From Deltaproteobacteria bacterium (GTDB lineage Bacteria > Desulfobacterota > DSM-4660 > Desulfatiglandales > HGW-15), in contig JAFGFM010000045.1 of the NCBI GenBank assembly GCA_016931115.1, positions 1 through 32,493 on the forward strand: DNA of 32,493 nucleotides. The letters are read 5' to 3'. Positions 26,378-27,205 of this stretch are shown here, in pieces; position 1 is the first letter of the stretch; every line of letters begins with the position of its first letter. The notes under the pieces are model-generated. The model ran no database searches and had not been told where the DNA came from. It worked only from the letters and a program-made list of their open reading frames with translations. A program made the translations under genes and the position numbers.

Positions 26378-26401
26378 CGGAATAATTTCATCTTCTTCGT
26401 C

Positions 26402-26421
26402 ATTCCAGCGAAGGCGGGAAT
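26402..26421. repeat. ATTCC...GGAAT hairpin repeat
   Basis: A hairpin of the form ATTCC(A)GC, GAAG loop, GC(G)GGAAT just after yceI. It is the same type as the widespread ATTCCC(N8)GGGAAT repeats (dRS3-like in Neisseria). It may also stabilise or end the yceI transcript. Confidence 0.5.
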
Positions 26422-26545
26422 CCATTTTAGGGTATTAAAAAAGGCTCCTCCCAAGAATTTGTGGTTACAAAGACTGATAAGCAGTAACACCAAAGAGGAA
26501 CTATTGTTTTTTCTACTAAATGGAATATTATTTCTAAATTATGGG

Positions 26546-26804
26546 ACAATTGGTTAAATGCCGCCCCTAAGGGGCTTTGTTTTTTTAGATAATGTGTGTT
26601 CTATTAACATATCACCCCTTCGGGGCTAAAAACCATATGCTGCTCCTTTTGTAATAACAACAACACAGATGTGAAATGTTAGCCACCATTTTTGTGCCGC
26701 CTCTATAGCTAAACAGTATCAGCACCATAGGTGCGGCACATTAATAGCACGGTGTGTACGTTTTTTACAAGCCCCATCGGGGCGACATGTTAAACGCCAA
26801 TTGT
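26546..26804. repeat. Structured non-coding element with terminal inverted repeats
   Basis: The ends are ACAATTGG (26546-26553) and CCAATTGT (26797-26804). Beyond them the similarity continues imperfectly (TTAAATGCCGCCCC against the inverse of GGGGCGACATGTTAA). Inside are four hairpins with three-base loops: GCCCC-TAA-GGGGC (26563-26575), CCCC-TTC-GGGG (26615-26625), GCACC-ATA-GGTGC (26722-26734, enclosed by TGTGCCGC/GCGGCACA) and GCCCC-ATC-GGGGC (26771-26783). No protein frame is apparent. The element ends one base before the stop codon of the neighbouring membrane-protein gene. A MITE-like or REP-derived element is likely. Confidence 0.6.
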
Positions 26805-27143
26805 TTATCCTACCCACCACATAATAATTGTATAAATGATACCTGTAATATAGAGAGTTCCGAATATCTCCTTATTGTACTTTGCGAGCCAGAGAGGCAG
26901 ATAAATATCAAAATTATTCTTCCGGTCTGAAGTATACCTTGCGGCAATTCCTGTCAAAGGGCATTTGAATTTATTTAATGCAAGGATTAATACTTCAAAT
27001 AAAACAACGCAGATCAAGGTAAAGGATACAGCAAATTTTGAAAGAAAAGCGTAGACTGGTGTTGCGATTATAGAGCCTGCAAACAGTGCCCATACAAATG
27101 TGTGGGCTGTTTTTACAATTATCAGCTTTTCCTTTTTCTCCAT
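26805..27143 (-). CDS. Uncharacterised small integral membrane protein
   Basis: A 112-residue protein of unknown function with three predicted transmembrane helices: about residues 8-30 (AHTFVWALFAGSIIATPVYAF), 34-55 (AVSFTLICVVLFEVLILALN) and the C-terminal IFGTLYITGIIYTIIMWWVG. Between the second and third is a probable cytoplasmic or periplasmic loop, KCPLTGIAARYTSDRKNNFDIYLPLWLAKYN, which looks conserved in character and carries a single Cys. I do not recognise a named family; the loop style recalls DUF2784-like proteins. The Met at 27143 is preferred over one nine codons earlier. It is downstream of lhgO on the same strand. Confidence 0.6.
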   Translation of the reverse strand: MEKKEKLIIVKTAHTFVWALFAGSIIATPVYAFLSKFAVSFTLICVVLFEVLILALNKFKCPLTGIAARYTSDRKNNFDIYLPLWLAKYNKEIFGTLYITGIIYTIIMWWVG

Positions 27144-27176
27144 ATCGCAGCCCAATACTATGAGGGTCAAACATGT

Positions 27177-27205
27177 GTAGAGACGGGTTTAAAACCCGTC
27201 TCTAC
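27177..27205. repeat. Perfect 14-base palindrome
   Basis: GTAGAGACGGGTTT and its exact inverse AAACCCGTCTCTAC flank a single central A. It lies between lhgO and the downstream membrane-protein gene. Such near-loopless palindromes recur in many genomes and are probably REP-like; extrusion as a cruciform or a transcript hairpin is possible. Confidence 0.75.

Follow-up and report, generated by a model that had tools for sequence, protein, structure and literature searches.

Repeats of the REP/BIME/REPIN type, known with RAYT (TnpA_REP) transposases, are short palindromic units that lie in inverted pairs and in multiple intergenic copies, and adjoin genes of Y1 HUH transposases. ISL3-family MITEs are multi-copy elements without an ORF, bounded by terminal inverted repeats (TIRs) beginning with GGCTC and flanked by an 8-bp target duplication, and an insertion sequence (IS) with the same ends encodes a PF01610 transposase. 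Another, little-studied branch of Y1 transposases, TnpA_Y1 subclass 1.2, is reported to be mostly restricted to Cyanobacteria and Bacteroidetes and to lack, in general, typical secondary structures at its ends (PMC6006769). The element described here resembles both repeat types in these features, both TIRs and a probable target duplication being seen in one copy and the neighborhood of Y1 HUH genes in relatives. It differs from REP/BIME/REPIN in that the 5' foot of its hairpins lacks a GTAG/GTGG tag and a conserved tail follows the stem on the 3' side, and from RAYT-linked REP in that the gene associated with the units belongs to subclass 1.2, not 2.x. It differs from ISL3-family MITEs in its body of Y1-type hairpin units, which none of the other six short ISL3-ended elements examined contains.

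The window, that is, the whole analyzed stretch of 32,493 nucleotides, belongs to a deltaproteobacterial draft genome (G000; 5.18 Mb in 240 contigs). With a probability of about 0.7, we interpret its interval 26546-26804 as the core part of one truncated copy of an element that is dispersed and non-autonomous, and in which an ISL3-ended MITE frame is combined with REP-like units whose Y1 system is orphaned. The class, a truncated MITE, is ordinary, and the body is uncommon.

The window copy and its hairpin units

Four perfect hairpins with 3-nt loops are present in the interval at the places given by the preliminary description. Under a criterion of a perfect stem of at least 4 bp with 3 or more G/C and a 3-nt loop, the count of four compares with a mean of 0.26 in dinucleotide shuffles (0 of 2000 shuffles reach four) and is the highest among 259-nt stretches sampled along the window. 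The folding energy of the interval is also lower than in shuffles, with a z-score of -4.15. A within-region repeat finder with default settings reported zero repeats. As also stated previously, the interval is non-coding; it lies between convergent genes, and its right edge adjoins a stop codon, that of the ORF 26805-27170 on the minus strand.

Each hairpin belongs to a unit in which a stem of 5 bp encloses a loop of 3 nt and is followed by the tail RRCATRTTAATAG, with neighboring units spaced about 50 bp apart; the body of an element contains four outward-facing units arranged as two inverted pairs. Comparison with other copies defines 26546-26804, to which no strand is assigned, as the element core with four units in the order - - + +, lacking the right outer part and the right TIR. 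Unit L1 (26550-26576, minus strand; copy comparison and hairpin count) contains the hairpin GCCCC TAA GGGGC at 26563-26575 and a degenerate tail, and unit L2 (26601-26626, minus strand) contains CCCC TTC GGGG at 26615-26625 and the tail GATATGTTAATAG. On the plus strand, unit R1 (26721-26747) contains GCACC ATA GGTGC at 26722-26734 and the tail GGCACATTAATAG, and unit R2 (26770-26796) contains GCCCC ATC GGGGC at 26771-26783 and the tail GACATGTTAAACG. The hairpin noticed earlier as enclosed in a second stem is that of R1, with the outer stem GTGCCGC/GCGGCAC.

The boundaries first assigned to the element had to be changed, since homology in other copies extends about 100 bp to the left and about 80 bp to the right, up to different inverted repeats. 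In the window, the left outer part occupies 26466-26545 (plus strand; homologous in C144 and C91 by inspection) and is preceded by the left outer TIR GGCTCCTCCCAAGAATTTGTGGT at 26443-26465 (plus strand), an ISL3-type end at which other copies also stop, and which further terminates MITE-sized elements of related genomes as well as an element of 1.34 kb that encodes an ISL3 transposase. The window copy is truncated, having lost the right outer part and the right TIR. The pair ACAATTGG/CCAATTGT, previously taken for terminal inverted repeats, does not represent the element ends: the copies disagree at the right end, which in other copies reads NCCATTTAT, and CCAATTGT in the window is the junction of the element with the stop codon of the neighboring gene (ORF 26805-27170). 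The CAATTG of the left end recurs in several copies.

In the covariation check that had been suggested, the stems strongly covary. In 47 distinct units, 98.7% of stem cells are paired, a percentage inflated by the choice of units with at least 4 of 5 stem pairs; changes on both sides of a stem number 30, compared with 7.7 for shuffles and no more than 5 for slid controls, which retain the relatedness of the units yet fall far short. The units do not belong to the GTAG class of REP, which has GT[AG]G at the foot of the stem on its 5' side, the base before the stem always being A and GTAG preceding none of the units listed. A search for the unit pattern in 395 genomes of the phylum gave 19 matches in G000, six in a genome of the same genus (G001) and one in each of seven others. 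The number of units varies between copies.

Dispersed copies and ISL3-type ends

A BLAST search at the DNA level, also proposed in the preliminary description, found the element at 16 places in G000, at nine places in G001 and at two weakly similar places in G015, a member of a related genus; the search gave no match in the other 38 relatives. Because a single copy is in some cases split over two places, we estimate the number of copies in G000 at about 15. The outcome named at the outset as speaking against a mobile or structured element, no other copies and no covariation, was thus not observed.

Core-length copies are found in contigs C144, C91, C20 and C155, and copies in C20, C94, C101 and C114 extend about 80 bp further right, up to a TIR. 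The right outer part, which ends in the inverted repeat ...AAATTCTTATGAGGAGCC, is 88-91% identical to a hand-made consensus in four copies, TIR included, and lies at a constant distance from R2. Copies in C180, C159, C76 and C81 consist of some units only, without a TIR. Both TIRs are retained in one G000 copy only (C94:13151-13424), which is flanked on either side by the T-rich TTTTCTTT, a probable 8-bp target duplication; all others, including that of the window, have one TIR or none. The partial copies resemble truncated derivatives of a single parent. The complete element would be about 0.45 kb long, with TIRs of about 23 bp, GGCTCCTCAYAAGAATTTRTGGG, and an 8-bp target duplication. As in MITEs, the copies are dispersed, without coding capacity and shorter than about 600 bp. 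Two orthologous copies, L047 (C114 of G000) and L064 (C34 of G001), have the same extra stretch of about 0.5 kb between the left and right pairs of units.

The outer TIR GGCTCCTCACAAGAATTTGTGGG (26443-26465 in the window) also bounds elements of 1.3-1.4 kb in related genomes and, with up to two mismatches, is present in 23 of the 61 genomes searched. One such element, of 1344 bp (G041:C45:1254-2597), encodes an ISL3 transposase (PF01610, 1.8e-86) and is flanked by the 8-bp duplication AGATAAAG. Other genomes contain short elements of 290-438 bp with the same TIR, and one of them, a MITE-sized element in G007, has a clear 8-bp duplication, AAGAATGA. Six short ISL3-ended elements of 290-438 bp (L070, L076, L128, L129, L130 and L132) from several other genera of the order have no hairpin units, and thus the ISL3 ends and the units are joined only in this genus.

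The ISL3-type TIRs and the 8-bp duplication suggest that the element was most likely moved by an ISL3-family transposase, which would mobilize it in trans. A search of the G000 assembly with PF01610 gave no match, and thus no assembled ISL3 transposase; contig C238 of this genome begins inside an IS end, its first 86 bp being 89% identical to the IS end of G041. Nine contigs of G001 start or stop at a distance of about 100 bp outside the same TIR, the pattern expected if a multi-copy IS breaks the assembly. The window copy is probably inactive at present.

Hairpin units and Y1 transposases of subclass 1.2

Units adjoin a Y1 transposase gene in G015, G305 and Bernardetia. In G015, an array of 13 units starts 38 bp from an IS200-like Y1 gene (PF01797), and the arrays of this genome occur without ISL3 ends; the sole unit match of G305 lies 68 bp from its Y1 transposase gene; and the tnpA gene of a Bernardetia plasmid is preceded by two units and followed by another two in inverted orientation, spaced about 50 bp. 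When this exact unit sequence is considered, one array, that of G015, supports the connection with a Y1 gene, and the rest is a shared layout. The Y1 proteins encoded next to the hairpins are about 150 aa long and have DHVH-like, WQ and Y---Q--HH motifs. Judging by these motifs, they carry the TnpA subclass 1.2 signature; the signatures are the same as in PMC6006769, but the subclass was published as generally without typical terminal structures, whereas hairpins adjoin the genes here.

The association extends to other loci of this subclass. In 12 of the 14 genes with the subclass 1.2 signature and both flanks testable, GC hairpins in the flanks exceed those in shuffles, their number being reached by no more than 4 of 100 shuffles; L166 and Bernardetia are the two exceptions, the stems of the latter being below the G+C threshold of the hairpin count. 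Over the 14 loci, GC hairpins have a density of 11.4 per kb up to 150 bp from the gene and of 0.8 per kb beyond 1 kb, although part of this gradient may reflect the comparison of mostly intergenic sequence with sequence that is more coding; the shuffles serve as a composition control for the flank density. Relatives of subclass 1.2 were absent from the viral contigs and phages searched.

We lean towards the view that subclass 1.2 has its own REP-like class of repeats, in which short GC hairpins are followed 3' by a tail that often ends in ATAG or TAGC and inverted arrays flank the gene on either side, with units about 50 bp apart, and that in this genus an ISL3-ended MITE captured such repeats, which then spread in the absence of their own transposase. 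By its association with such units, an IS200-like Y1 (HUH) transposase of TnpA subclass 1.2 most likely recognizes them as single-stranded DNA hairpins, and the MITE would have captured these units. A protein-query search revealed no Y1 gene of the subclass 1.2 type in the draft assembly of G000 or in G001, and therefore the units are probably passengers spread by ISL3 ends and now decaying. In the literature searched, with most subscription journals outside its coverage, there was no prior description of this combination, nor of the wider point that hairpin repeats accompany subclass 1.2 transposases. The units are candidates for the DNA substrate of a HUH transposase branch to which none has been assigned, and the element illustrates how the ends of one transposon may carry the recognition hairpins of another across a genome.

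Alternative explanations and orthologous loci

Several points weigh against the preferred interpretation: both TIRs occur together in a single G000 copy, whose duplication is T-rich; the G000 assembly yielded no ISL3 transposase; ISL3-ended MITEs of other genera are devoid of these units; the lack of a Y1 gene comes from a protein query of a draft assembly; and one array, in G015, connects this exact unit sequence with a Y1 gene. The units might instead have been dispersed as in pure REP/BIME spread, by a Y1 transposase that was lost or not assembled, the ISL3-type ends being secondary or irrelevant. The four copies with some units but no TIR and the G015 arrays without ISL3 ends agree with this explanation, which we nevertheless consider unlikely: the outer sequence and TIR are similar in four copies and keep the same distance from R2, the partial copies seem derived by truncation from one parent, and no subclass 1.2 Y1 gene was found in either genome by protein query. 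An accidental grouping of short hairpins and terminal repeats has a practically negligible probability; the exact ends first named were indeed coincidental, but the dispersed copies at 16 genomic places already refute this explanation, and the shuffles, none of which reaches four hairpins, also speak against it.

The low folding energy, the covarying stems and the location between convergent genes would also suit a structured non-coding RNA, or a transcription-terminating or mRNA-protecting element selected for its RNA fold. This possibility seems very improbable, since covariation is equally expected for DNA hairpins, the number of units varies, copies are truncated, and an Rfam search found no RNA family matching the element. 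Four copies of G000 have orthologs among those of G001, and in the three collinear pairs the identity of the element (88.4, 91.5 and 80.1%) is not consistently above that of the flanks (78-94%), hence there is no consistent sign of constraint. In the fourth pair, C155 of G000 (L052) and C2 of G001 (L017), the element is inverted in place between the two species, with 84.4% identity when flipped and with breakpoints in or beside the terminal hairpin units. An RNA function is therefore unsupported. From the initial proposal of a MITE, a REP-derived element or a structured RNA, the last is not supported, whereas the first two each hold in part, the MITE in the ISL3-type ends and probable target duplication, and the REP-derived element in the body of REP-like hairpins of the Y1-transposase type.

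In G001, the intergenic sites orthologous to those of the C94 and C133 copies lack the element, although the flanks there are too diverged to define an empty site to the exact base. The locus of G001 that is orthologous to that of the window copy was considered as a clean empty site and rejected, as the indel spans the two downstream genes too.

Other repeats are present in the window. A CGTCATTCCAGCGAAGGCGGGAATCC-type palindrome at 26398-26429, with many repeats in related genomes, resembles the CGTC-tagged REP class of PMC3733652. The palindrome GTAGAGACGGGTTTAAAACCCGTCTCTAC at 27176-27205 has many copies in G001, where a relative is found in the orthologous spacer after yceI (L114). Finally, positions 1-185 and 499-573, at the contig edge, match Group II introns in Rfam.
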